Assembly: GCA_927443345.1 (NCBI GenBank)
Contig: CAKMKJ010000002.1
Coordinates: 62,001-126,000 of the forward strand
Direction: 5' to 3'
Origin: an uncultured Anaerolineaceae bacterium
Lineage (GTDB): Bacteria; Chloroflexota; Anaerolineae; Anaerolineales; Anaerolineaceae
Length of the DNA: 64,000 nucleotides
Position 1 is the stretch's first letter. Each line of letters begins with the position of its first letter. A model generated the notes under the pieces. It was not told where the DNA came from. It saw only the letters and a program-made list of their open reading frames with translations, and searched no databases. A program made the position numbers and the translations under genes. Shown here in pieces: positions 33,707 to 53,010 of this stretch.

Positions 33707-36109
33707 TCATGGTTGCCAATCCATCGCGGCTTGTACTGCTCGATAAGCATCTACCAATCCTGATTCTATGGGTTCAGTTGGTGCTACACAATTTGGCAGT
33801 TGTCCCTGGTAAGCGTGTGAAGTCTCAACCAGTATTTTTGATGTTTGGTCGATATTCCCAATCAATTTAGGATTAGCTGACCACATCAAAGCCACCACAC
33901 CGCTGATGTGCGGAGCTGCAAATGAAGTGCCACTCGAGCTCGAGTATGCACCGCCCGGACTTGATGAAATTACATTTTCTCCTGGCGCCAGGATTTCTGG
34001 TTTATGGTGATTTTGTTTATCCACCGCGAATGATTCCAAAGAAGAGAAACTGGATATGTTTCCTTCCTGATTGATGGAACCCGCAGAAAACACTTTGGAA
34101 TAAATCGCTGGCGGATCAATCACGGTATCACAGCCATAGTCGCCAGAATTGCCAGCCGCCACAGACATGTATATGCCTGCCTGTTTCAGGGCATCCACTG
34201 CCGGAAGGAATACGTTTGAATCACAACCTTCAGCAGCCGGACAGCCCCAGGAATTATTAATGATCATTGCTCCCTTGGAGGCATCACCATCGGTGAACGC
34301 ATCCCCTCCTTGCGGAAACGGCGCCAGCATGAATTGCATACAATCAAGATAAAATCCCGGGTTTCCCTGGTTTCTGGCCAGGTTGACACAGCCAATCCAC
34401 TCCGCCCCAGGCGCTACACCGGTATTCTGGCCCAACATTATCCCCAACGTTAGTGTTCCATGACCCGAGATGTCAGTCGGAAAGGATGTTTGGTTCCAAG
34501 GATCAAACCAGTTGAAATCATCATTAGTGGCTTCACCGCGATAAGCCGCTGCTATTTCTGGGTGCCTGCCATCCACCCCACTGTCGGTCTGTCCGATCAA
34601 GATGCCTTCACCAGTTATACCCAATTCAATTATCACTTGGTTTGCATGAATCATGCTGAGGTTCCATAAGGTTTCTTCAGGCAAACTTAAAATGTCGCCT
34701 TCCTCAACGATCAATGGTTTCGGTAACGGCCTCAACTGTGGATTCTCCAAAATACGATCAACAGATGGATCATTTTGAAGCAGCAATTTAGCGATTAATC
34801 CACCTTGTACTTCAATGCCATTGACCAAATAGTAAGGCGTATAGTTCAAATTTAGTATGTCTAAACGATCGTGTATTTCAGATTGCGTAATCTCGGCTGT
34901 TTTTACTAATTCGTCATAAACTGCAGTTCTTCTTGCCTCATAATCTTGAATACTAGAAGCAAATGAGACATCAGCCTGTTGTTTAAGAATAATAAACTGG
35001 TTGTCTCCAAAAAATCCGACCTGTCCCCACCCGAAATACAATATAACGATTGTGACAACACCAAAAATCACAAATCCAAGATGAGCTGATTTTGGCAAGC
35101 TAATCCGGTGAATATTTTTTAAGTTAGGCAGCAGCATGATGGAAAAAAACTGAACTGCCAAAAAGGTAAACCAGGCTGCCTTATTGGCCCACTCCAGTGT
35201 TTCTCCGGTTCCTCCGGTAAATATCAAAGAAAGTTCATCCATATCAAAGAAAATTAATGGAAGACTGAACAGTAAACCTATAATCGTACTGGCAGGTAAT
35301 CTGCCATGGTCTTTATTTTTCCTCCAAATGAAAGACATGGCCGCGATTAACCAGCCGGCGATGGGCACAGTCACGACCAGCATTTGCTGAGATCCATTTA
35401 CCGCCAGAGCAGTTATGCTGATAAGCAAGAAAACAGCCACAACCAGCCCATCGAAAATAATTTTCGAAATTTTAAAGCTGCCATCAACCGATTTGCTCTG
35501 ATTTAAGTATTCTTGAAAAATAAATTTTCCTGAATACCATGCAAAGATAACACCTACGAAAATTGCAAGAATTGTGTCCAGCCAGGATCCCAATGCTCCC
35601 CAAAGTAACCAGGGAAAACAAATGATCGCCCCAATAATAACAATCACACCAGAAAAATTTTGTTTACTAGAAATTTCTTCTGAGACCTCACCATTTTTTC
35701 GTGAAAACAAATTGCGGCCAGCAATGACCATCAGAAGCGCGGCTGCTTGAAGGATGGCGGTCAAGTTTTGCTCAGCCAACCACAAGGTTTTTGAAGGGAT
35801 CGAAATCACTGCCAGGATGGCAGCATAAGTCCAAAGTTTAAAAATTCGTTTGATGCGAGGCTCTTTCACCAACTTAGCCATCAACAAGCACACCACCAGG
35901 ATTAGTAAACTGGTTACCATGTGTGTAATCCAGCGATAATCCGGTGAATGCCCGCTGATTTGCATGATGGTCTGTTCATTTACCCAGTTGATAAATAGAT
36001 TTAAACCGCTAAACAAGATAACCCAGATAAAGCTAAAAATAGTCAGGCTAATAAGACCGCAGCCAATGGATTTATTTGGTTCTTCAGTATTCATATTTTG
36101 TGGGTTCAT
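33707..36109 (-). CDS. Membrane-anchored S8 (subtilisin-like) peptidase
   Basis: The 800-residue protein is a fusion. Residues about 17-400 hold roughly eleven hydrophobic segments. Residues about 400-495 form a soluble, possibly propeptide-like part. The rest is a subtilase domain with Asp509 (GQTDSGVDG), His550 (SGHGTLT), the oxyanion Asn in AAGNSGDYG and Ser729 (SSGTSFAAPHISG). The triad is complete, so it should be active. No signal peptide precedes the first membrane segment. Most subtilases are secreted with a cleaved prodomain, so a polytopic N-terminal half is unusual. The ECF sigma factor gene follows about 50 nt downstream on the same strand. Confidence 0.9.
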   Translation of the reverse strand: MNPQNMNTEEPNKSIGCGLISLTIFSFIWVILFSGLNLFINWVNEQTIMQISGHSPDYRWITHMVTSLLILVVCLLMAKLVKEPRIKRIFKLWTYAAILAVISIPSKTLWLAEQNLTAILQAAALLMVIAGRNLFSRKNGEVSEEISSKQNFSGVIVIIGAIICFPWLLWGALGSWLDTILAIFVGVIFAWYSGKFIFQEYLNQSKSVDGSFKISKIIFDGLVVAVFLLISITALAVNGSQQMLVVTVPIAGWLIAAMSFIWRKNKDHGRLPASTIIGLLFSLPLIFFDMDELSLIFTGGTGETLEWANKAAWFTFLAVQFFSIMLLPNLKNIHRISLPKSAHLGFVIFGVVTIVILYFGWGQVGFFGDNQFIILKQQADVSFASSIQDYEARRTAVYDELVKTAEITQSEIHDRLDILNLNYTPYYLVNGIEVQGGLIAKLLLQNDPSVDRILENPQLRPLPKPLIVEEGDILSLPEETLWNLSMIHANQVIIELGITGEGILIGQTDSGVDGRHPEIAAAYRGEATNDDFNWFDPWNQTSFPTDISGHGTLTLGIMLGQNTGVAPGAEWIGCVNLARNQGNPGFYLDCMQFMLAPFPQGGDAFTDGDASKGAMIINNSWGCPAAEGCDSNVFLPAVDALKQAGIYMSVAAGNSGDYGCDTVIDPPAIYSKVFSAGSINQEGNISSFSSLESFAVDKQNHHKPEILAPGENVISSSPGGAYSSSSGTSFAAPHISGVVALMWSANPKLIGNIDQTSKILVETSHAYQGQLPNCVAPTEPIESGLVDAYRAVQAAMDWQP

Positions 36110-37154: not shown

Positions 37155-37311
37155 TCTGTATGGTTTAGTGCAGTTCCAATTACCTGAATAATGGTAGCTG
37201 AGTATTCTATGATGCAATCATTTGCTCAAAAAACCACCCACAGATGCACAATTCATTGTCATCTCAAGGTGGTTCTTTAATTTTTTACCAGAATTGATAG
37301 GGAGATTTACC
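37155..37311 (+). promoter_or_regulatory. Structured leader with terminator-like hairpin before SHMT-GcvT
   Basis: The leader contains ATGAT-GCA-ATCAT at 37209-37221. A long stacked hairpin at 37232-37274 follows (AACCACC/GGTGGTT, AGATG/CATCT, ACAAT/ATTGT), then TTTAATTTTTT, which is an intrinsic-terminator layout ending 25 nt before the ATG. TGGTTT at 37161-37166 could pair with AAACCA at 37231-37236 and break the terminator. This fits attenuation or a riboswitch. It does not match the glycine riboswitch consensus by eye. Confidence 0.5.
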
Positions 37312-40300
37312 ATGACTGATTTCTTAATGCGCAGAAGCCTCGCCGACCTTGACCCTGAGGTATTGCAATTATCTGAATACGAGAAGGAACGTCAATTCCG
37401 TAAACTGATCTTGATCCCTTCAGAGAGTACTGCACCCGCTGCCGTGCGCGAGTCATTGGGATCGGTATTTCAAAATATATACGCAGAAGGTTATCCCGAT
37501 GAAGATATGCGCTGGATGACCGAGTCTCAAATTCTGGATTATCCCGCTCGACTAACCTATTACCGCCGCAACGCGGATCCGCGCTACTACAAGGGTGTGG
37601 AATACGCAGACATGGTTGAGAGTCTGGCTCGCCGTAGATGTGCCGAAACTTTCGCCACTGACCAGATCAGCGCTGATCAAATCTACGTCAATGTACAGGC
37701 GCTTTCAGGTGCCCCTGCAAATAATGCTGTTTACAATGCCCTGATTGAAGTAGGCGACTCCATCCTCGGCATGAACCTGCTGCATGGCGGGCATCTCACA
37801 CATGGTTCCTCCGTTAATCGCTCCGGCAAACTCTACAAAGTTACACATTACAATGTTGATCCGGTCACTGAAATGATCGACTACGATAAGGTGCAGCAGA
37901 TTGCCCTTGAATGCAAACCTAAAATTCTAATTTGCGGTTATTCATCTTATCCATTTGTGCCCGATTGGAAACGTTTCAGAGAAATTGCCGATTCCGTTGG
38001 TGCCTACTTACTTGCCGATGTTTCGCATATTGCAGGTTTGATTGCAGCAAAAACCATCTCGTCTCCTGTCGGTCATGCCCATATCATCACCTTTACCACT
38101 CATAAGACCATCTGCGGACCTCGCGGTGCATGCATCCTCACCACTGATGCTGCCCTTTCAAGAAAGATCGACAAAGGTGTCTTCCCCGGCGAACAAGGCG
38201 GCCCTCATGTGCACGTTTTTGCAGCACTGGCAACCACCTTCAAAATTGCACAATCAAAAGCTTTCGCAGAGCTTCAAAATCAAATCGTCAAAAACAGTGC
38301 TGCACTCACCAACCAACTTCAAGCGCGAGGCATGCGCATCCCATTTGGCGGCACCAACACCCATCTTGCCAACCTGGATTGTAAACTGATTAAAGGTAAT
38401 GATGGCACAACCCTCTCCGGTGACATGGCTGCCCGCATCCTGGATGTGGCAGGCATTGTGCTCAACCGCAATACCATCCCTGGTGATAAAACAGCCAACA
38501 ATTCTACAGGCATCCGCTTTGGTACACCCTGGATGACCCAGCGTGGACTTAATGAAACCGATATGGTCGAAGTGGCCAATATCATGGTTGACCTGCTTCA
38601 AGCTTGCACGCCATATTCTGTTGAGACGCGCAAAGGCCTTAGCTCACGCGCAAAAGTGGATTTCAAGGTTCTTGAAGACGCCAAGCAACGCGTTAGAACC
38701 CTTTGTGAAAAAGCTGGTGCTGACCTTGATTACAAAAAGAATGGCTATCCGCAATTCTATTATTTAGATGATCAATCTGAGTCAAAAAAAGAACTTGCGA
38801 CGCTGAACCTGAGCGGTCCCAGCCTGCGTCAATACGTTTCCTATTGCTTCACCTCTAATGTTGAAACACTCGAACCTGGTCAGTCTCAAAAAACATCGCT
38901 TTCCACGCCTATGGGGACTATTGCAGGCGCTATTGCTAATGTGGATGGCAATGCATATCGCTTCAGCTTTGCACGCGAAAAATTCGGTCTGGCAGCCACC
39001 TTCCTACGCGGTTTGGCAGAAGGTTATATCACCTTTGACAAAGACATTCCTCGCCGCATCCCTGGCAGCGTCGCGGTCATCGAAGACCTTGAATCGGCAC
39101 CGGTGATTGCAGATGGCGAGCTAGGTATCAGTCAGAAACCTTACTTTATTGGCCAAACCCAGCCCGAAGGCACACCATTGCCAGCCTTTGTATGTGAAGA
39201 AAAAGAATCCAGCGAATTATTGAGAACCTCTCTCTACGAAACCCACAAAAAGATGGGTGCAAAAATTATCCCCTTCGCCGGGTGGGAAATGCCCGTTTGG
39301 TATACCTCCGTGGTTGAAGAACATCTGGCATGCCGCCAGGTTGCCGGCTTGTTTGACGTGTCACACATGGGCGTCTTCCAGGCGGAAGGTGTTCATGCCG
39401 CGCTATTCCTCGAGACAGTATGCGGAAACGATATCAATTCGCTGGCTGTTGGAGAATCCTGCTACACTCACTTCCTTGATCCTGAAGCCAATGTTATCGA
39501 TGACACCCTCGTTTATCGTCGTGACACCAATAAATATTTGGTGGTGGTCAATGCCTCCAATGATGCCAAAGATTGGGCATGGCTGAACGCCGTTCGCGAA
39601 GGTAAAGTCATGATCGATCCTCAACGCCCGTGGATCAAAACCTTTGGCGCCGGTGTTACCCTGCGCAACCTGCGAGACGCCAAAGCTGGCGCAGATATGC
39701 GTGTGGATATTGCCCTACAGGGTCCTAAATCCAGAGACATTCTACTATCACTTGGCTGTGACGAAACGACCCAGAAAAAAGTCAAAGCTTTAAAACGAAC
39801 TGAATTATGTGAAGTCGTGATTGGCGGGTTTGATCTTGTCGTTTCTCGCACCGGTTATACTGGCGAGAAAATGGCCTTCGAATTATTCGTCCATCCCGAT
39901 AAAGCACCAGCCCTTTGGGAAGCCATTTGTAAGGTTGGTGAACCCCTGGGTATGAAAGCCTGCGGTTTGGGTGCCCGTGATTCGCTTCGCACCGAAGCCG
40001 GTCTGCCCCTATATGGCCATGAAATGGGTGGCGAAGATAACTTCAGCGTTTCAGAAGCAGGTTTTGGTTCTTATGTCAAAATATACAAACCCTGGTTCAT
40101 CGGTCGAAATGCTTATATTGAAAAAGAAAAAGCCCGATCAGGCATTGTGGCTCGCTTCAGATTTACCGATAAAGGGGTGCGCATGGCACACAATGGCGAC
40201 CCCGTGATGGATGCCAAAGGCAAAGTCATTGGCAAGGTCACTAGTTGTGCAATTGATAAAGAAGGTTATTTGACCGGTCAGGCTTTTGTAGAAACTCGCA

Positions 40301-40440
40301 GTGCAGTGGTAAACACCCCCATCTCAATCTTCCAGGGTGCTGAGAATTTGTCACCAGTGGCCCCTGCTTCGTTAGAAACCGGAGATCGAATTTCACTTCC
40401 GACTCCGGCCGTTGTGGTAAGTCGTTTTCCAATTTCTTAA
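37312..40440 (+). CDS. Serine hydroxymethyltransferase-aminomethyltransferase (GlyA-GcvT) fusion
   Basis: ATG 37312 follows GGGAG; an upstream in-frame extension to 37222 would run through the leader terminator and is rejected. The 1042-residue protein has an SHMT domain at about residues 1-485 (LILIPSEST, YAEGYPDED, PLP lysine Lys265 in TTHKTICGPRG). A segment of about 150 residues follows, then a complete glycine-cleavage T-protein domain at about 637-1042 (AGWEMPVWYTSVVEEHL, GLFDVSHMG, IDDTLVYR, SRTGYTGE). SHMT interconverts serine and glycine; GcvT passes the glycine methylene group to tetrahydrofolate. The fusion places two folate-linked steps of one-carbon metabolism in one chain. Residues about 500-575 resemble a degraded N-terminal GcvT fragment (LEPGQSQKTSLSTPMGTI). 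Confidence 0.93.
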   Translation: MTDFLMRRSLADLDPEVLQLSEYEKERQFRKLILIPSESTAPAAVRESLGSVFQNIYAEGYPDEDMRWMTESQILDYPARLTYYRRNADPRYYKGVEYADMVESLARRRCAETFATDQISADQIYVNVQALSGAPANNAVYNALIEVGDSILGMNLLHGGHLTHGSSVNRSGKLYKVTHYNVDPVTEMIDYDKVQQIALECKPKILICGYSSYPFVPDWKRFREIADSVGAYLLADVSHIAGLIAAKTISSPVGHAHIITFTTHKTICGPRGACILTTDAALSRKIDKGVFPGEQGGPHVHVFAALATTFKIAQSKAFAELQNQIVKNSAALTNQLQARGMRIPFGGTNTHLANLDCKLIKGNDGTTLSGDMAARILDVAGIVLNRNTIPGDKTANNSTGIRFGTPWMTQRGLNETDMVEVANIMVDLLQACTPYSVETRKGLSSRAKVDFKVLEDAKQRVRTLCEKAGADLDYKKNGYPQFYYLDDQSESKKELATLNLSGPSLRQYVSYCFTSNVETLEPGQSQKTSLSTPMGTIAGAIANVDGNAYRFSFAREKFGLAATFLRGLAEGYITFDKDIPRRIPGSVAVIEDLESAPVIADGELGISQKPYFIGQTQPEGTPLPAFVCEEKESSELLRTSLYETHKKMGAKIIPFAGWEMPVWYTSVVEEHLACRQVAGLFDVSHMGVFQAEGVHAALFLETVCGNDINSLAVGESCYTHFLDPEANVIDDTLVYRRDTNKYLVVVNASNDAKDWAWLNAVREGKVMIDPQRPWIKTFGAGVTLRNLRDAKAGADMRVDIALQGPKSRDILLSLGCDETTQKKVKALKRTELCEVVIGGFDLVVSRTGYTGEKMAFELFVHPDKAPALWEAICKVGEPLGMKACGLGARDSLRTEAGLPLYGHEMGGEDNFSVSEAGFGSYVKIYKPWFIGRNAYIEKEKARSGIVARFRFTDKGVRMAHNGDPVMDAKGKVIGKVTSCAIDKEGYLTGQAFVETRSAVVNTPISIFQGAENLSPVAPASLETGDRISLPTPAVVVSRFPIS

Positions 40441-43827: not shown

Positions 43828-44676
43828 CTATTTTTTCTGAGAAATGAATAACATCCGATCGAGTAGAGTATTTTGCAAAAATGCAAAAACAATCACAATC
43901 GGTAATGACATAATAATAAACATCGAAGCCAGAATACTCCATGGTTGAGCATTGCCTGATTGAACCATTGCATAAATTGACATAGCTAATGTTACTGTCT
44001 CTGCTTCACTGACAAATAACCAACCCATCGCAAACTCTGAATATCCCATTAAAAACGCAATGAGCCCTGCGATAGTGATTGATGGTAAAGCTAGCGGAAG
44101 TGAAATATGCCCAAAAGTCTGCAAACTATTAGCCCCATCCAAAAATGCTGCTTCTTCCAATTCTTTTGAAACAGATTGAAAACCTGCTCTCATATTCCAT
44201 ATACAAAAAGGGAGAGCAAAAGTGGCATACACGAGGGTTAATCCCAATAATGTTGTTCGTAATTGGACCATACTCAATACAATATACAGAGGTGTCATGA
44301 AGGCTACTGGCGGAAGCATTGCTGCCAGAAGAAGAACAAATAGTGCGGGTTTCTTACCAGGAAAGCGAAATCGGGCAAAGGCATAAGCCAATGAAGCCCC
44401 TAAAATTAACGCAATAAATGCGGCTCCAATAGAGACAATCATACTGTTGACTAATAAATGAGAAAAATCAACAGATTGATAAGGTCTATCAAGTACAGTG
44501 AAAAAGGGTTCAAGAGAAAAAACTTTCGGAAACAACCTGAATTCTACTGGCCGACTTTTAAGAGAGCCATCAAAAGCTAACCGAATTGCACCCCAAATTG
44601 GAACCAAAACATAAAAGCCAATAACGATCAAAGCTATTTGAGTGAGTAATTGCTTAAACCAGTTCATTTTACGCAT
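43828..44676 (-). CDS. Carbohydrate ABC transporter permease, MalG-type (second pair)
   Basis: The 282-residue protein has six membrane segments and the EAA loop ELEEAAFLDGANSLQTFGHI-type signature that contacts the ATPase. It matches inner-membrane permeases of maltose-type importers. Its start overlaps the end of the GT39-MalF fusion gene by 8 nt, so it is the obvious dimer partner of that permease. No ATPase gene lies nearby; a shared MsmK-type ATPase elsewhere would be needed. Confidence 0.9.
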   Translation of the reverse strand: MRKMNWFKQLLTQIALIVIGFYVLVPIWGAIRLAFDGSLKSRPVEFRLFPKVFSLEPFFTVLDRPYQSVDFSHLLVNSMIVSIGAAFIALILGASLAYAFARFRFPGKKPALFVLLLAAMLPPVAFMTPLYIVLSMVQLRTTLLGLTLVYATFALPFCIWNMRAGFQSVSKELEEAAFLDGANSLQTFGHISLPLALPSITIAGLIAFLMGYSEFAMGWLFVSEAETVTLAMSIYAMVQSGNAQPWSILASMFIIMSLPIVIVFAFLQNTLLDRMLFISQKK

Positions 44677-46825
44677 AAGTCACTCCCTCACTGGCTTTAC
44701 TCCATTTATTTAAAATCATCACAAAAATTACAAGAAATCCCACAGTAATAACGTTAATCACTGCTGATATCGCAAATTGACCATTTATAAAGAATCCGCT
44801 TGGGTTAAAAAAATTGTAAGACAAACCTGCCATGGTTAATTGCCCCGTGGGGAAGACCTGAAACAGATAAAACTGGTTAAAAGCAAAAATACTTCTTATA
44901 ATTACTGCTGGAATTATTAAAGGCAATAACAATGGCCAAGTAATCCATCTAAATTTGTTGAACCCAGTTGCGCCATCCATCGCAGAGGCATCATATACTT
45001 CAATTGGCAAAAGCTTAAGACCTGCTGAAGCAGCCAACATCATAAACGGAAACCCATACCACACCCCTGCAATGAGCAAAACCAGAATTTGCATTTCGGA
45101 AGAATTTTGCCAGCCATTAAGAAATGAAAAAGGAAAACTGGATCCAAATTGACTAACCCCTAGACTAAGCCATCCAGTTACTGGTTGGAATACATTCACC
45201 CACATTAATGCGCCTATCATTTCTGGAATTGCCCAAGGCAAAATAAATAAAATCTCCCATCCCTTTTTTAGAAATACTTTGTTTTGTCTTAACAATAGTG
45301 CAGCAACTAATCCTAAAAATGATTGTAGAGCCACGGATACAATCGTCCAAAAAATGTTAAAAAACAAGACACCGCTATCTGTCAGATAGTTCATCGTTGA
45401 GGGATATGCATTGGTTCCAATATAGCCGACTACTTTTTCACGGAATGGAAAAACTGTTTCAAGAGGCTTGACCTCTCCAATTACTCCACCCCAAACCTCT
45501 CTAAAAATACCACCTTCAAACCCATCTTTGATAGAGACACTGTTAAAATTTGAGAGAGAGACACCAATTTCAAATACTAGTGGTAATAAAGTAAAAACTA
45601 CAAAAACAATGATTCCAGGAATTAACCAGGGAAGTGCTTTCTTTGTGTCATTTCTTTCAACGGCTCTGTTTTCCGATTTTTTTAGTCGCATTCTAGAGAA
45701 CCAACTGGAAATTGGAGATAGAATCGTTTTATTAAACCCTTCACCCGCTATGATACACAAAGGTGCGGTTAAGATGACGATATACTGAGCCCATTTCACA
45801 GGATAAATAAACAAAAAGGCAAGCGCAATGAATACCCAGATTGCGTATAGTGGTTGTTTCTTTATTTGACTTTTAAATCCAAGAATAGCAAATAATGTTA
45901 TCAATGGATCAACGGCCACCAGAATAGAATTTGGCTGCCACAATTTTGGTGTTGAAAATAGGTATACCAAGGGCTGCCAAAAAGGATATCCTGCATTGGT
46001 GACTTCAGAGGCAGTTGAAGAATATGATGCATAATACAGGATTGTTTCTTGTAATCTCCCTAAAGGATTTGCCCAGAAATAAGGATTTGTTGCAAAAAAT
46101 ACCAAAATGGAGATCGCACCCCATCCTAAAATCGGCAAAATTGCTTTTTTAACTTCTTTCTTCTGAATTGCTAATATTAGCCAATCAACTAAAATCGCAA
46201 TCCCAACAACACAATAGATATATTTTGATGCTGCAGTCAACCCAAGAAATAATCCAGCCAAAATTAGCCAGCCAAACGATTTATTCTTCCTTTTCTTCCA
46301 TTCTATGTAAGCGAAGGCAGACAATAGACTTGTGAAAGCGGGTAATGCCTCGAGCATCACCTGACTTACATATTTAGTTGTAAATGCATGAATCGCAAGA
46401 AAAAACCCGCCAACAGGATCGACAAGTGCGACCAAAATAGCTGTTAATGTACCAAAAATCGCACTGGTTATTCTGGCATTGCGCAATAGATCCCGAGGAA
46501 GATACTGGTTTGGTCCAGCTGATGTTGGACGATCAGCGATTAAGGTTTTCTCTGGCAAAGGCAACAGGCTGATGCCAAAAACGATCTTCGCTAATGGAGG
46601 ATGTTCTGGACGATAATTTGTCTCTGTTAATGAATCCCAATCGCCTGTTCTAAAAATGGTCGTGTACTGTTGAGCCGCGCGCAAGTAATCATCTTCATCA
46701 TAATCCACGTTTAAAGTAGTCAAAGCATGCCATCGAATAAAACCAGCCAAAGCTGCAACGATGATAATGGCAAGAACCATTAACAGTTTTATTCCCTTTT
46801 TATTGTTCACCATACACCCATCCAA
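44669..46825 (-). CDS. Fusion of a GT39/ArnT-like membrane glycosyltransferase domain with a MalF-type ABC permease
   Basis: The 718-residue protein has two unrelated membrane parts in one uninterrupted frame. Residues about 1-375 have the first-loop acidic motif DYDEDDYLRAAQ, the loop motif EHPPLAK and multiple membrane segments, as in PMT/ArnT-type GT-C glycosyltransferases. A basic linker (MRLKKSENRAVERNDTKK) follows. Residues about 393-718 form a complete MalF-like permease with EAA loop VYDASAMDGATGFNKFRWI. An internal Met at the linker has no clear ribosome-binding site. It lies 10 nt after a secreted amylase gene and overlaps the MalG gene by 8 nt. I know of no characterised protein with this domain pair. 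The glycosyltransferase half may be inactive or a membrane scaffold. Confidence 0.85.
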   Translation of the reverse strand: MDGCMVNNKKGIKLLMVLAIIIVAALAGFIRWHALTTLNVDYDEDDYLRAAQQYTTIFRTGDWDSLTETNYRPEHPPLAKIVFGISLLPLPEKTLIADRPTSAGPNQYLPRDLLRNARITSAIFGTLTAILVALVDPVGGFFLAIHAFTTKYVSQVMLEALPAFTSLLSAFAYIEWKKRKNKSFGWLILAGLFLGLTAASKYIYCVVGIAILVDWLILAIQKKEVKKAILPILGWGAISILVFFATNPYFWANPLGRLQETILYYASYSSTASEVTNAGYPFWQPLVYLFSTPKLWQPNSILVAVDPLITLFAILGFKSQIKKQPLYAIWVFIALAFLFIYPVKWAQYIVILTAPLCIIAGEGFNKTILSPISSWFSRMRLKKSENRAVERNDTKKALPWLIPGIIVFVVFTLLPLVFEIGVSLSNFNSVSIKDGFEGGIFREVWGGVIGEVKPLETVFPFREKVVGYIGTNAYPSTMNYLTDSGVLFFNIFWTIVSVALQSFLGLVAALLLRQNKVFLKKGWEILFILPWAIPEMIGALMWVNVFQPVTGWLSLGVSQFGSSFPFSFLNGWQNSSEMQILVLLIAGVWYGFPFMMLAASAGLKLLPIEVYDASAMDGATGFNKFRWITWPLLLPLIIPAVIIRSIFAFNQFYLFQVFPTGQLTMAGLSYNFFNPSGFFINGQFAISAVINVITVGFLVIFVMILNKWSKASEGVTYA

Positions 46826-46835
46826 ATGTTGTTGA

Positions 46836-48482
46836 TTAATCAGTTTCTATTACGAATAAACTTATTGAATAGGGGGAAATAGTGTTAATCGGAATGTAGC
46901 CAGATATTTCTGAATTCTCAATAGTAAAAGAACTAGCAATAATATTTCCCAATAAACTTGTTAAGCGGTATTTCCCATCTTGTAAAAACGGTGATTCCCA
47001 TGAGAGAGCACTATCCTCCAAGATAGATTTTGACAGATTAATTAGTACCAATATTGTTTCGTCGCCATCATTGCGCAGTGCAGCATAAGCACTCTTGTTT
47101 GACGTTTTGACAGCCAATAAATTACCATTTAACAATGCTGGGTGAGATTTACGCAAATCAATTAATGTCTTGTAAGTATTAAGTAAGGATTCAGGTAAGT
47201 CTTTTTGCTCATCGACATTAACAGTAGAAAAATTACTATCTGGCAGACGCCATGGTGTAGCACTGCTAAAGCCAGCATTGTCTTCAGCAGTCCATTGCAT
47301 GGGTCGGCGAATATCCTCATCAGGTTTGGTTCCTAGCATGCCTATTTCTTCGCCATAATAAATAAATGGCGTGCCAGGAGAAGTGAGTAATAACGCAGCC
47401 GCCACTTTGGCTTTATCGACATTGCCATTAAGCACACTCATGATCCGGTTTTGATCATGATTGGTCAGAAATGTTGCAAAATTCCAATCTGGGGCATCAT
47501 TTTCAATAAAACTGATTGCACTTGTCACGCCTGAATTGGATTCTCCTTTGGTACTATTAACAAAACCTTGGGCTATTTCAAAATTGAAGACCATGTCCAT
47601 CTGGTCACCAGAGTACAAAGTGGTCATACGGGCATCGCTGCTGGCTACTTCACCAACTACATAAGTATCAGGGTTGATGTCCTTATAAAAGGTGTAAAAC
47701 TGTTTGAACCAATCATGAGTTTGTTGGGTGTTTTCCACCTTTTCCCCTTCTTCAATCAAATGCTTGGCTGCGTCAATTCTAAAACCGTCCACCCCAACAT
47801 CACTAATCCAATAATTAACCACCTTTTCCATTTGCTCAGTCACATCTGGATTTAAGTAATTGAGATCAGGCATGCAGTCACAAAAATATCCATAATATTG
47901 TTTTGCTGAAGGGCCAACTGTATTATCATGCCAATAATTACCTTTACCTGTTTCGGACCAAACATACCAATCATGATAATCAGATTCATCACTATTTCGT
48001 GCATCAATAAAAAATGGATGTTGACTTGATGTATGATTTAAAACCATATCAATAATGATCTTAATTCCACGCTTATGTGCTTCAGATAATAGGTTATTAA
48101 AATCCTCCATCGTCCCATATTCTGAATTGATGGCGTAATAATTCATCACATCGTACCCATGATAAGAAGGAGAAGGATGAATTGGCATAAGCCAAATTGC
48201 GTCAATTCCCAAATCAGTTTTGGTATCCGGATTTCCGTCATTCAAGTAATCAAGTTTTTCAGTAATTCCGTTGAGGTCACCAATTCCATCATCATCACTA
48301 TCATAGAAACTTCTGACAAAGATTTCATAGAAAACAGCGGTTCTCCACCAGGGGGAGTCACTAACCGCAGCTTGTGTTGCCTCTGCAGTCTCGGAAATCG
48401 TTTTAGTTTGTATATATGGTGTTCCACAACTTACAATAAACACAAATGACAGAATTACAAGAAATAGAGAAGGTTTTTTCAT
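46836..48482 (-). CDS. Secreted lipoprotein alpha-amylase (GH13)
   Basis: The 548-residue protein starts with a lipoprotein signal peptide, lipobox FIVSC with Cys19 to be acylated. The GH13 catalytic barrel starts near residue 45 (WWRTAVFYEIFVRSFYDSD). Catalytic regions are DMVLNHTSSQHPFF, GFRIDAAKH with the nucleophile, VVGEVASSD with the acid/base, and FLTNHDQNRIMS. It should sit outside the membrane and degrade alpha-glucans to feed the importer. A terminator lies just upstream of the gene on the minus strand, so it may need its own promoter or readthrough from the malG-type gene. Confidence 0.93.
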   Translation of the reverse strand: MKKPSLFLVILSFVFIVSCGTPYIQTKTISETAEATQAAVSDSPWWRTAVFYEIFVRSFYDSDDDGIGDLNGITEKLDYLNDGNPDTKTDLGIDAIWLMPIHPSPSYHGYDVMNYYAINSEYGTMEDFNNLLSEAHKRGIKIIIDMVLNHTSSQHPFFIDARNSDESDYHDWYVWSETGKGNYWHDNTVGPSAKQYYGYFCDCMPDLNYLNPDVTEQMEKVVNYWISDVGVDGFRIDAAKHLIEEGEKVENTQQTHDWFKQFYTFYKDINPDTYVVGEVASSDARMTTLYSGDQMDMVFNFEIAQGFVNSTKGESNSGVTSAISFIENDAPDWNFATFLTNHDQNRIMSVLNGNVDKAKVAAALLLTSPGTPFIYYGEEIGMLGTKPDEDIRRPMQWTAEDNAGFSSATPWRLPDSNFSTVNVDEQKDLPESLLNTYKTLIDLRKSHPALLNGNLLAVKTSNKSAYAALRNDGDETILVLINLSKSILEDSALSWESPFLQDGKYRLTSLLGNIIASSFTIENSEISGYIPINTISPYSISLFVIETD

Positions 48483-48528: not shown

Positions 48529-49548
48529 TTACCCTTTTACACCACCAGCCGTTAGACCGTTGACAATTTGTTTCTGAAGCAGAATGTAAACGATCGCAAC
48601 AGGCAGGGCAACAATAATCGCCATAGCCGCAAAGCGGTTCCAAGGGATCGAATTTGCATATTGGCCAGTCATATTATAGAGTGTCATTGCAAGCGTGTAG
48701 TCGCCTGGTTGAGTAAGGAACAACCATGGCAAAACAAACTCTTGCCAATGACCGATAAAACCCAAGAAAAATGTAACAGCCATTTGAGGCGCAGCTAGAG
48801 GAATAACAATCCTAAAGAAAACCTGATTGGGATCTGCCCCATCTATGGCAGCCGCTTCTTCAAGTTCATGCGGAATCGTGTCAAGGTAACCCTTCAGATT
48901 CCAAACTGCAAAAGGCAGCGCTGTCGAAATCATTGCAATACCAACACCAATAAGTGAATCTCGTAAGTTGAAAAGAAGCTTGGCAGCCGTACCCGGATCA
49001 CATGCAGTAAATGGTTGAATTATCATTGCGCCATCAGCACAAGTTTTTACTTGCAGACTATTCATCAGCAAAAATAAAGGAGTGACCAACCCCACTGCGG
49101 GCATTAAGAGTGGAATAAAAACCATCAGCATTAATATTTGCCTAAGTTTAAATTTAAACCGTGAGAATGCATAAGCTGCAGATATGGCAATTAGTAAGGC
49201 AGCCAATCCAACTAAAATTGATAGCAAAGCACTATTCTTAAGTAATTCAAGAAAAGTTACCGGATTTGCAGTAGGCCGATCAAGCACTTGTTGGTATGCA
49301 ACAAGAGAAATTTCTTTTGGGAACAATTCAAGACTGGAAGGTCGGGTTGATTTTGAGCTAAATGACAATGTAATAATGTACATGATCGGAAACATGACCC
49401 CGATAGTAATCAACAAGCAAATTAGTTGAATTCCTAATTGTCTCCACAGAGGAAGCTTTTCACTTCCACCTTTGTTGCCAGAGGTATCCATGGTAAAGAA
49501 TCGCACCAGAAAATTTTTCCGTTTAGGTTCTTGAGATACTGTTGTCAT
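48529..49548 (-). CDS. malG: Carbohydrate ABC transporter permease, MalG-type (first pair)
   Basis: The 339-residue protein has six membrane segments and the EAA loop HELEEAAAIDGADPNQVFF followed by IPLAAP. A loop of about 30 residues after LFLLMNSLQVKT is longer than in the second MalG here and contains two cysteines. It starts 1 nt after the upstream permease gene, so the pair is translationally coupled and forms the membrane channel of the importer. Confidence 0.92.
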   Translation of the reverse strand: MTTVSQEPKRKNFLVRFFTMDTSGNKGGSEKLPLWRQLGIQLICLLITIGVMFPIMYIITLSFSSKSTRPSSLELFPKEISLVAYQQVLDRPTANPVTFLELLKNSALLSILVGLAALLIAISAAYAFSRFKFKLRQILMLMVFIPLLMPAVGLVTPLFLLMNSLQVKTCADGAMIIQPFTACDPGTAAKLLFNLRDSLIGVGIAMISTALPFAVWNLKGYLDTIPHELEEAAAIDGADPNQVFFRIVIPLAAPQMAVTFFLGFIGHWQEFVLPWLFLTQPGDYTLAMTLYNMTGQYANSIPWNRFAAMAIIVALPVAIVYILLQKQIVNGLTAGGVKG

Positions 49549-49549
49549 T

Positions 49550-50563
49550 TTATGACTCCGAATAACTTTCTGTGGCTTTGGTAATCCGATTTGTGATCAG
49601 GAAGATTGTGAGTGCCACAAAAAATATGATCACAGAAAATGCACCAGCCGCACCATAAAGTCTCAAATTCCTAACAAGGTCATAGGCGAAAGTAACCAAG
49701 ATTTCTGTTGACCTCGCAGGACCGCCAGCGGTCATGAAAAACACAAAATTAAACAAATTGAACGATAAGGTGAAGCCATATACTGCCGCAGGAATCATCG
49801 CAGGACGTATTAATGGAACTGTAATGTTCCAAAACTGGAAACTTTTTGAAGCGCCATCTATTGAGGCTGCCTCATAGAGCTCTTTTGGAATACTTTGTAA
49901 CGCCCCCGTTGCTACCAAAACCATAAACGGCCAACCCAGCCAAAAATTGGCAATCATCATGGCATAATAAGCGAGTGGTAATGGACCATTAGGCAACAAC
50001 CATGGAATTGGCGGTTGATATTCAAACAGCCATCTGATTTTTACTGGATCTACATTTCCAAATAGTTGCGAAAAAAAGGTTAATGACTGATTCATTGCAC
50101 CATATTGCTCGTCAAAAATATTTCGCCAAATTGTCGCAACTACAATTGGAGGAATTACAACAGGTAATACATAAATAGCCCGATAAATCTTTTTGAACCA
50201 AATACCATTAACATTTAAAAGAACAGCAATGAGTATACCTGCAGGAACATGCAACATCACGTTTGTTAGAGCCCACCATATGTTGTAAGTGAGAACTCTG
50301 AAGAAATCAAAATTTTGAACTGGCAAGCCGCCAGTGATAATATCAATATAGTTTTGTAAACCAATTTGGTTTAATTTTGGAGAATTCAAACCCAATAAAA
50401 GGTCTTTTGTTTGAAAATCTGTAAACGAAATAATCACCTGGTATATCAGTGGATAAAATGTAATTACACCTAAAACAATGAACGCAGGCAATAGATACAA
50501 ATAGGGAAGAAATGATTTTTTAAAATTAAATTTGCGTTTTACAGGTACCGTAATCGTTGCCAT
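49550..50563 (-). CDS. malF: Sugar ABC transporter permease, MalF-type (first pair)
   Basis: The 337-residue protein has six membrane segments (first near residues 18-40, LPYLYLLPAFIVLGVITFYP) and the EAA loop PKELYEAASIDGASKSFQFW. It pairs with the MalG gene immediately downstream. It is separated from the binding-protein gene by 122 nt holding two long hairpins, which probably set its expression well below that of the binding protein. Confidence 0.93.
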   Translation of the reverse strand: MATITVPVKRKFNFKKSFLPYLYLLPAFIVLGVITFYPLIYQVIISFTDFQTKDLLLGLNSPKLNQIGLQNYIDIITGGLPVQNFDFFRVLTYNIWWALTNVMLHVPAGILIAVLLNVNGIWFKKIYRAIYVLPVVIPPIVVATIWRNIFDEQYGAMNQSLTFFSQLFGNVDPVKIRWLFEYQPPIPWLLPNGPLPLAYYAMMIANFWLGWPFMVLVATGALQSIPKELYEAASIDGASKSFQFWNITVPLIRPAMIPAAVYGFTLSFNLFNFVFFMTAGGPARSTEILVTFAYDLVRNLRLYGAAGAFSVIIFFVALTIFLITNRITKATESYSES

Positions 50564-50685: not shown

Positions 50686-51918
50686 TTACTTATTTGCAGC
50701 TTCGGCACCAGCTTTTACCCAGGCGTCAGGAGTAATACCCTGTTCGTAGACTTGGTCAGTACCGCAGAAGTTGGACCAGTAAAGGCCTAACTGGGGAACC
50801 TGTGGGCGAATTGTAGCGCCAGCATTGAAAGCGTCAACAAGGCCCTGAATCAGGGGATCTGAAATGGTGATATCGGTGAGCACAGGAACATGACCCGCTT
50901 CATTCATCATCACGGTTTGAGATTTTTCATTGGTCAAATAGAGAGCGACCTTTAAAGCAGCTTCTTGATTGGAGCTATTCGGGTTGAAATAGAAACCATC
51001 AACACCAAGCATGGGTTTGGCAGCGCCAGCAGGGCCAGCGGGTAATGGTGCAATACCCAATTTGTCACCCAAAGCAGTTTTGTAATCGCCCATTGCCCAG
51101 TTACCATTCACGATCGCAACAGCTTTTCCTTCAGAGAAGGGAGCTAAACCATCAGAATCAGTTTTGGTCCAGGAATTGGTCTTGGAGATTTGATACAGAT
51201 CATTTAACCAAGTCATAGCATCTACAACACCGGTACCTTGATCAGCAACAACTTTCCAATCGGCGTCAAAAATTTCGCCGCCAAAAGCACTAAAGAAACC
51301 ATAGTTGTGGTAGCAGCCATAAGCAAAGGCTACTTCGGTTCCGTCCTGCATCAACGCGAGCAATTCATCAGTTGTGGCGGGCGGGGTTGGTAGAAGTTCT
51401 TTGTTGTACCAAAGGGTAACAGCTTTGAGAGTTTCAGGAATACCATAAAGTTTTCCATCAAGGCTCATACCGTCGATTCCCAATTGATTTATTCCATCCA
51501 ATTGACCTGCAGCAAGGTCGGTGATATCGGCTAATAAGCCGGCACGAGCATCATCGCCAAGGCTGTCATTGGGGGCAATGAACATATCTGGTCCACCACC
51601 GGCAGCAACATCGGTTCGATATTTGTTGTAAATATCATTAAAGGGAACTTGCAAGACATTGATAGTGATTTCGGGCATATCAATAGCTGCCTGCTCAAGG
51701 TTTTTAGCCAAAGCTAACTCTTCAGCAGATCCAGTACCATAAGCGTGCCAGAAGGTTACTTCAACAGGGGCCATGGCTTCGGTAGCCATAGGCGCTTCAG
51801 TTGCATCTGCAACAGGTGCTTCAGTAGCAACGGGGGCTGCGGTTGGAGTGGCGCATGCAGTCAGGATGAACGCCAAAACCAAAATCATAGTAAATACGGG
51901 CATTAACTTCTTAGTCAT
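50686..51918 (-). CDS. malE: Extracellular sugar-binding lipoprotein, MalE-type
   Basis: The start is ATG 51918 with AAGGAGAG 7 nt upstream; a longer in-frame version from 51963 lacks such a site and would bury the signal peptide. The protein of about 410 residues has a lipoprotein signal (LVLAFILTAC, Cys22) and a short Ala/Thr/Pro-rich linker. The solute-binding fold of the maltose/oligosaccharide family follows (EVTFWHAYGTGSAEE, VPFNDIYNKYRTDVAAGGGPDMF). It delivers sugar to the MalF/MalG channel. It is the only binding protein in the locus although two permease pairs are present. Confidence 0.93.
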   Translation of the reverse strand: MTKKLMPVFTMILVLAFILTACATPTAAPVATEAPVADATEAPMATEAMAPVEVTFWHAYGTGSAEELALAKNLEQAAIDMPEITINVLQVPFNDIYNKYRTDVAAGGGPDMFIAPNDSLGDDARAGLLADITDLAAGQLDGINQLGIDGMSLDGKLYGIPETLKAVTLWYNKELLPTPPATTDELLALMQDGTEVAFAYGCYHNYGFFSAFGGEIFDADWKVVADQGTGVVDAMTWLNDLYQISKTNSWTKTDSDGLAPFSEGKAVAIVNGNWAMGDYKTALGDKLGIAPLPAGPAGAAKPMLGVDGFYFNPNSSNQEAALKVALYLTNEKSQTVMMNEAGHVPVLTDITISDPLIQGLVDAFNAGATIRPQVPQLGLYWSNFCGTDQVYEQGITPDAWVKAGAEAANK

Positions 51919-52020
51919 TTCTCTCTCCTTTTTACAAGTTAACCAAAAAACAAGATTGTTCAAAATTCACAACATAAAAATTGATCCGAAACACCTCCTT
52001 TATCATTTCACATAGTAGCA

Positions 52021-53010
52021 TTAAGCTGTTTCCCTTTCAATAACCTTCAGTGGCAACCTTATATGTTGAATTGGTTGAGAAGATTCTGTCAGGCGCGATA
52101 AAAGCAAATTCGTGGCTATTTTTCCAGATTCATCTAATGGTTGATGTACAGTGGTTAAACCAAATGAATCCGCCACGTCGATATCGTCAAATCCAACAAT
52201 CGCGATGTCTTCAGGCACTCGCAAACCGAGAATTCTGGCTTGCTTGATTAATGCGATTGCCTGAAGATCAGTTGCAGCAAAAAAAGCAAGAGGTAAACCA
52301 TGCTTTACCAGGTTTTTTAAAACTATTCCAGGATCAAATGCATATTCGTTGATGAAATCATCCGGCAGTTTAATATTATGCTCAATAAGGGCTTTTTGAT
52401 AACCTTCCATTCTCTTGGCTATAGGATCGTGTCCAAATTCAGGCTTAATCTGCCCGCCAATGAAAGCTATCTTTTTATACCCTTTTTTGACCAAATACTT
52501 GGTTGCCATATACCCACCTGAAACGTCATCAATTTCAACAGTCGAAAAATGAGAATGGTAATATTCAATCAAAACGGTTTCAAGATCATTACTTAATAAC
52601 CTTTGAGCAATGGTATTGTCAAAAGTTTGCGAGACGATGATTAAACCATCAAGCGTTGAGCGCAATGGTAGCGTTTCTAAGTAGCTGGTCTCTTGAGACC
52701 GTGAGTTTACCGGATAAATCACCAATTCATATTCATTCTTACTTAATACCTCTGCAATGCCTCGCAGACGTTGAACAAAAGAGGGTGTGGTAAAAAATGG
52801 AATTAGTACCCCAATGCGTCTTGTATCCATGAAGGCTCGCGCACGAGATTCAGCTTTTGGGACGTAACCCAAGTCATCAATGGCATTCATAACCATTGAC
52901 CTGGTTTCTTCTTTTACACGTAGGGGGAAATTTAATACTCGAGATACAGTCGCTATACTGACGCCTGCTTGTTGAGCCACGTTGTAAATTGTTGCTTTTG
53001 AACTGGACAT
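52021..53010 (-). CDS. LacI-family transcriptional regulator
   Basis: The 329-residue protein has the LacI N-terminal helix-turn-helix and hinge helix (TIYNVAQQAGVSIATVSRVL) and a periplasmic-binding-type effector domain that ends with PLKVIERETA. It stands upstream of the malE gene on the same strand, without an intervening terminator, so it most likely represses the sugar locus and responds to an imported sugar or its derivative. A clear operator palindrome was not found. Confidence 0.93.
   Translation of the reverse strand: MSSSKATIYNVAQQAGVSIATVSRVLNFPLRVKEETRSMVMNAIDDLGYVPKAESRARAFMDTRRIGVLIPFFTTPSFVQRLRGIAEVLSKNEYELVIYPVNSRSQETSYLETLPLRSTLDGLIIVSQTFDNTIAQRLLSNDLETVLIEYYHSHFSTVEIDDVSGGYMATKYLVKKGYKKIAFIGGQIKPEFGHDPIAKRMEGYQKALIEHNIKLPDDFINEYAFDPGIVLKNLVKHGLPLAFFAATDLQAIALIKQARILGLRVPEDIAIVGFDDIDVADSFGLTTVHQPLDESGKIATNLLLSRLTESSQPIQHIRLPLKVIERETA

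Follow-up and report, generated by a model that had tools for sequence, protein, structure and literature searches.

The joined gene and its neighborhood

The window, by which we mean the whole 64,000-nucleotide stretch of DNA analyzed here, features on its minus strand, in order, a lacI-like gene, a binding protein gene, malF1, malG1, an amylase gene, a gene joining a glycosyltransferase (GT) region to a MalF-type permease, and malG2. One binding protein thus accompanies two permease pairs, and the genome itself has one OB_MalK ATPase match. The features of the locus are:

52021..53010 (-), LacI-type regulator, named from sequence
50686..51963 (-), sugar-binding protein, MalE-like, lipoprotein by eye (family profiles)
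49550..50563 (-), malF1 (family profiles)
48529..49548 (-), malG1 (family profiles)
46836..48482 (-), secreted α-amylase, lipoprotein-like by eye (PF00128)
44669..46825 (-), GT-C/MalF-type fusion gene of 718 codons if read from TTG 46825, more likely 714 from ATG 46813
45716..46813 (-), GT-C (PMT/ArnT-like) module, residues 5-370, about ten transmembrane (TM) helices, with the loops of the putative active site on the outer face
46694..46705 (-), D41-Y-D43-E44, first outer loop, putative catalytic motif (motif conservation)
46595..46606 (-), EHPP (74-77), aligned to HPP[LF]xK of Pmt4
45782..45796 (-), KWAQY (344-348) (KWxQY conservation)
45635..45715 (-), cationic, fast-evolving linker, residues 371-397, cytoplasmic by the drawn topology
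44672..45634 (-), MalF-type permease module (F2), residues 398-718 (Pfam, phmmer and structure match)
44963..45001 (-), EAA loop (609-621), expected ATPase contact (alignment)
43828..44676 (-), malG2, partner permease, overlapping the fusion gene by 8 nt

A sequence-only reading of this locus had described a single uninterrupted frame of 718 codons, lying between a secreted amylase gene and its MalG partner. Both statements hold: the minus-strand frame 44669..46825 has no stop across its 718 codons, and the gene order is amylase, fusion, MalG. The mechanical start is TTG 46825; ATG 46813 is the likelier one, since it is preceded by an SD-like GGATGGG and yields 714 aa, the length of its four nearest relatives. 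The gene is truly one joined coding frame, with a length far beyond chance, a matter settled by conservation.

Two further frames of the window deserve mention in their own right. At 37222-40440 (+), a 1072-codon frame comprises a serine hydroxymethyltransferase (PF00464) and a glycine-cleavage T protein (PF01571). The same two domains share a single frame in a same-genus relative (L041:1730-4858), other relatives have frames of 1041-1074 aa at this site, and no account of this fusion was found in the literature searched. At 33707-36109 (-), an 800-aa frame features a subtilisin-type peptidase domain (residues 500-765) after a long preceding part, hydrophobic by eye.

Fold and topology of the two halves

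When the whole fusion protein was compared with Pfam, BPD_transp_1 alone was matched, above its cut-off (E 3e-12, 47.0 bits against 26.4), with zero GT families at E ≤ 1. Searched separately, the GT half reaches PMT_2 (E 4e-4) with 20.9 bits, below the cut-off of 26.1, which keeps it out of PMT_2 membership. At E ≤ 1, 3/10 members of alignment A2, which comprises the window's GT half, stand-alone relatives and the GT frame of genome G062 (see below), match PMT (best 4e-6), and 3/10 match PMT_2. Fused proteins match PMT in 1/12 cases and PMT_2 in 0/12; forms in which the GT is joined to a β-propeller match PMT_2 in 3/10. A profile of 28 GT rows found Pmt4 chains in the PDB at 2.5e-6 and 3.8e-5. 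The AlphaFold model of the GT half, from 28 rows, has a pLDDT of 94.3 and a pTM of 0.92, and Foldseek comparison of this model with the PDB returned 16 rows at E ≤ 1e-3, 14 of them PMT, ArnT or oligosaccharyltransferase entries and the other two chains of translocon entries. VIA aligns the model with Pmt4 (9i5l) at Z 27.4 (3.5 Å over 337 residues) and with ArnT (5f15) at Z 25.8 (3.6 Å over 311 residues); PDB chains absent from the VIA list were not counted as evidence. As modeled, the first half is clearly a PMT/ArnT-like GT-C membrane fold, so the prospect that it would prove unlike GT-C enzymes can be set aside, and the model and the Pmt4 profile match together support the claim of a GT39/ArnT-like region joined to a MalF-type permease.

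The second half had been described as a full-length sugar permease with an EAA loop, and the data agree. BPD_transp_1 is matched by 12/12 fused proteins, with the EAA region conserved, and residues 396-718 find E. coli MalF chains by phmmer at E 1e-22 to 5e-21 and SugA at about 1e-12. With 84.1 bits against a cut-off of 392, the half falls outside the MalF equivalog (NF008232). The full-length model (pLDDT 85.4) aligns with SugA over residues 390-715 (Z 24.1) and with MalF over residues 390-711 (Z 23.8); its pTM of 0.75 makes the relative placement of the GT and permease domains uncertain. The linker, 8 of whose 27 residues are K/R, has a pLDDT below 50 at residues 384-391.

In the drawn topology, whose TM limits were hand-set from model helices and whose sides alternate by construction from an N-terminus taken as cytoplasmic, the D-x-D-E, EHPP and KWxQY motifs lie outside, and the cationic linker and EAA loop inside. 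The DYDEDDY and EHPPLAK segments picked out by the sequence-only reading are both present and would face outward. We take D-x-D-E to be the counterpart of the PMT/ArnT acidic motif.

Recurrence and conservation across Chloroflexota

To catalogue the architecture in related genomes, three samples and one collection were searched. The family sample comprised 147 genomes, of which 39 match the GT half; 30 loci were read, 12 of them with the GT fused to the permease and one (G062) with the halves in overlapping frames, leaving nine matching genomes unread for architecture. In the class sample, 49 of 396 genomes match, and 22 of the 30 loci read (L009 and L059-L087, the window's included) are fused. 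The phylum sample yielded matches in 28/400 genomes; among ten new loci read, L241, L242, L244 and L247 have the fusion, and none of these four belongs to the class. A scan of 84,980 species genomes with the fusion alignment produced 162 relatives, of which the best 79 loci were kept; all 79 carry Chloroflexota titles. This set favors fused forms because it holds the best of 162 stretches from a fusion-alignment scan, and some of its loci are the same genes as in the genome samples. In every one of these 79, a frame covers at least some of each half, and in 70 it includes at least 300 aa of GT and at least 250 aa of permease. A MalG-type gene follows the fusion directly in 75/79, two of the other four loci stopping at a contig end, and the 8-nt overlap between the two genes recurs in 58/79. 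Whether related genomes have the fusion with the same neighbors had been raised as a check; it does recur, often beside the same kind of genes.

A stop, or two separate genes, at the linker in relatives would have spoken against the fusion; one frame is instead the rule and the exceptions are few. Of the nine incomplete loci among the 79, six are truncated where their contigs stop (L168, L176, L187, L189, L194, L204). The other three lie away from contig ends: the GT half of L178 is broken in frame, with an upstream frame keeping D-x-D-E, L202 lacks its first 74 residues, and the permease of L206 is reduced to 39 residues. L198, counted among the 70, lacks its first 50 residues. Genome G062 (L050) has both halves in two overlapping frames rather than one, and G330 (L107) retains about 40 permease residues, in another frame. 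A plasmid search with the full fusion as query matched 870 records, with no match reaching 80% of the query length; among the 20 matches listed, all lie within the permease half.

The genomic context of the fusion is of two main kinds. Maltodextrin context was assigned where BLAST against the genes of the window identified a binding protein, malF1, malG1 or an amylase, and prfA, prmC and uvrC neighbors were named from sequence; 36 of the 79 kept loci have the former, 29 the latter, one both and 13 neither. In those 29 and in L088-L092, the GT-MalF2/malG2 pair (GT-F2/G2) lies between prfA-like and prmC-like translation-termination genes. No binding-protein gene was detected beside the pair in the prfA-context loci; in the five such genomes whose malF1 region was fetched, a separate binding protein/malF1/amylase operon was present in 5/5, with malG1 labeled in 4/5 and a nearby ABC ATPase gene, named from sequence, in 5/5. 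Within the class sample, MalF1 (E ≤ 1e-90) occurs in 20/22 fused genomes against 28/374 others (Fisher p 1.5e-18, a test that counts unread matching genomes as not fused, ignores shared ancestry and treats two 396-genome samples as identical). Both fused genomes lacking MalF1 have the fusion close to a contig end, with a MalG1-like gene next to it. In G339 (Pfam-confirmed) and G352 (BLAST), the gene immediately upstream of the fusion encodes a binding protein, and likewise in G330, where the permease half is broken.

Conservation of the GT half was assessed over 80 fused rows, 79 from the kept loci plus the window's own. All 72 rows that extend to D41, D43 and E44 retain these residues; H75 and K80 are kept in 73/74 each, R118 in 76/76 and KWxQY in 80/80. 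Eight rows fall short of D-x-D-E: five of them start at the edge of a contig, another is L178 with its broken GT half, and the remaining two are L198 and L202, in whose loci the segment was looked for and not found. All 17 stand-alone rows and all 12 propeller rows keep D-x-D-E, and among the rows classed as "other" the first D is lost in 2/3. Gly takes the place of this first Asp in the GT homologs of L124 and L125 (genus g10), whose 633-638 aa include a long N-terminal extension. Seven pairs among six same-genus proteins were compared for dN/dS, pairs without values being saturated; the values, rough because dS is near saturation, are 0.05-0.09 for the GT half (four pairs), 0.04-0.07 for the permease half (three pairs), and 0.19 and 0.30 for the linker (two pairs). 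The earlier suggestion of a decayed enzyme reused as a scaffold is disfavored, because the outer-face motifs are kept, with D-x-D-E in 72/72 rows, and dN/dS in the GT half lies far below 1.

In a quick GT tree of 92 chosen rows, some genes being entered twice, all 59 fused rows fall inside one starred set of 68, which also takes in five tandem stand-alone copies, L111, the contig-cut L099, G062's GT frame and the broken form of G330. The fused label needs six changes on this tree, only two of them forced by starred branches, and a single old fusion followed by losses or partial copies is thus the simple reading of these sequences, not proof. Stand-alone GT genes are found directly before the GT-MalF2 gene in L138, L142, L158, L166 and L196; the position of such tandem copies inside the fused clade suggests that they are perhaps partial duplicates that have lost the permease half.

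The same GT domain also features in a second lasting fusion, to a Reg_prop β-propeller (10/10 forms scanned), found in L115-L123, L058, L112, L114, L249 and L250, mostly within maltodextrin operons at the position of GT-MalF2. In the GT tree these forms comprise one group of 12 (support 86, not starred). Nine of the 12 come after genes for a binding protein, MalF, MalG and an amylase-like protein; L121 follows an amylase gene where its contig begins, and L112 and L114 have other surroundings. Downstream of several of these forms come a GH57-like gene, named from sequence, and the uridine-kinase-like and aminotransferase genes also seen in the window. In L249 and L250, outside the class, the propeller form comes after a MalF-MalG pair.

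Proposed function and relation to known systems

We propose that the fusion comprises an outward-facing GT-C core with intact candidate catalytic residues, joined by a short cytoplasmic linker to a MalF-type permease. Paired with MalG2 and served by the MalK-type ATPase of this genome, it would form a second permease pair of a maltodextrin system that also has MalE, MalF1, MalG1 and the secreted amylase. The GT module, judging by its fold, would take a sugar from a polyprenyl-phosphate carrier and, held beside the docking place of binding proteins, may glycosylate those components of the starch-uptake machinery that lie outside the cytoplasm, with Ser/Thr sites of lipoproteins such as the binding protein and amylase the likeliest targets by analogy with GT39 enzymes. 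As a whole this explanation is tentative, its chances falling somewhat short of even. Its parts differ in strength: the motifs and model make it probable that the GT module is a tethered, active enzyme, and the MalG partner and EAA loop, together with the binding-protein gene found directly upstream in a few genomes, support sugar import through GT-F2/G2. The loci beside prfA/prmC/uvrC without detected sugar genes (29/79), those beside neither gene set (13/79), the sub-threshold Pfam score of the GT half, the missing D-x-D-E segment of L198 and L202 and the uncertain placement of the two domains in the model count against the proposal. The sequence-only reading had spoken of transport coupled to membrane glycosylation; the genetic linkage fits this, and the coupling itself stays a proposal.

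That the acceptor is a protein is possible, at rather less than an even chance, and by analogy we weigh it a little above a sugar acceptor. The preference derives from Caldicellulosiruptor bescii, in which deletion of a GT39 gene near celA is reported to abolish glycosylation of secreted enzymes (PMC6151902). Thr/Pro-rich linkers were considered as proof of a protein acceptor and rejected as not specific. The binding proteins of this genome mostly have Thr/Pro/Ala-rich linkers, and some GT-F2 operons feature binding proteins or amylases with few Ser/Thr in the linker, so the linkers single out no acceptor; the lipobox finder used here is a simple pattern that makes some false calls.

The strongest of the alternatives, though rather unlikely, is a sugar acceptor: at the importer mouth the GT would add a lipid-carried sugar to maltodextrins, or to some surface glycan, and F2/G2 would import or otherwise handle what is formed. 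Both modules found behind the GT, MalF2 with MalG2 and the Reg_prop propeller at the same operon position, may recognize carbohydrate, and both partners could point equally well to a sugar acceptor, as does the placement of GT-PROP after a MalF-MalG pair in L249 and L250. Moreover, at what we take to be the sugar-pocket positions of MalF, the region is partly changed in F2. However, the top-ranked folds are protein O-mannosyltransferases, and spending activated sugar on food would be costly. We also consider import-coupled glycosylation, in which the GT would tag or tailor oligosaccharides, or a docked binding protein, at the importer mouth during uptake, such that lipid-linked sugar chemistry and ATP-driven import became one machine in an early Chloroflexota ancestor; this bolder idea we regard as unlikely.

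It is quite improbable that the permease pair instead serves the enzyme, bringing back sugar freed by surface glycan turnover, much as LpqY-SugABC returns trehalose, or helping to supply the lipid-linked donor. The prfA-context pair without a detected binding protein beside it would suit such a role, as would SugA among the solved relatives of the permease, but Type I permeases with EAA loops are importers, the fusion is linked with the maltodextrin system, and the upstream binding-protein genes of G339, G352 and G330 argue in the same direction. A catalytically dead GT module that merely anchors or regulates the importer is very improbable: the match to only the front part of ArnT, the lack of a MIR domain by Pfam and the missing D-x-D-E segment of L198 and L202 are compatible with it, but D-x-D-E, HP, K, R and KWxQY are kept with few exceptions in fused, stand-alone and propeller forms, and dN/dS is about as low as that of the permease. 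An assembly or sequencing artefact, to which the draft metagenome contigs might lend color, is rejected as having practically no chance, refuted by the same joined frame in 79 named loci and by its presence in G173 and G358, genomes of 4.4 and 4.1 Mb that each consist of one contig.

The modules are each known and their combination is apparently undescribed: no description of a GT-C/ABC permease fusion was found in the literature searched, which mostly leaves out subscription papers, and one paper mentions PMT2 genes in Chloroflexi with no such fusion in its accessible part (PMC8756737). GT-C enzymes and ABC importers are each well studied, but no account of their lasting covalent union was found there. 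Its wide occurrence in one phylum and strong purifying selection indicate a kept solution rather than an accident. The frequent adjacency of the fusion to starch-uptake genes suggests that nutrient uptake and surface glycosylation are linked. The fusion thus offers a handle on whether Chloroflexota tie the two together, and on the role of bacterial PMT-like enzymes without known acceptors.

Among known systems, C. bescii Cbes_1864 resembles the fusion in being a GT39-type gene that adjoins glycoside-hydrolase genes, an analogy we suggest without sequence comparison; it encodes 556 aa, with no permease reported in the accessible part of the source (PMC6151902). The GT-Reg_prop proteins of Chloroflexota share the GT family and, in most loci read, the operon position of GT-MalF2, but the propeller replaces the permease and, unlike GT-MalF2, no MalG2 comes next in the loci read. 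Pmt4 (GT39) shares with the GT half the GT-C core fold, over the 337 residues aligned at Z 27.4, and the HPP[LF]xK segment, whereas the fusion's GT half has about ten TM helices and no MIR domain by Pfam, and the C-terminal part of its family is a permease or a propeller. ArnT, which possesses a D-E-type outer motif, shares the GT-C fold over the 311 residues aligned at Z 25.8, but identity is 13%, the fusion's GT half is joined to a permease, and ArnT's own C-terminal region has no counterpart in that half, which matches its front part alone. Finally, MalF and SugA (MalEFGK2, LpqY-SugABC) share with the fusion the permease fold, the EAA loop, a MalG-type partner and a long outer loop after the first helix of the permease, but in the fusion this permease is preceded by a GT-C enzyme in the same chain.
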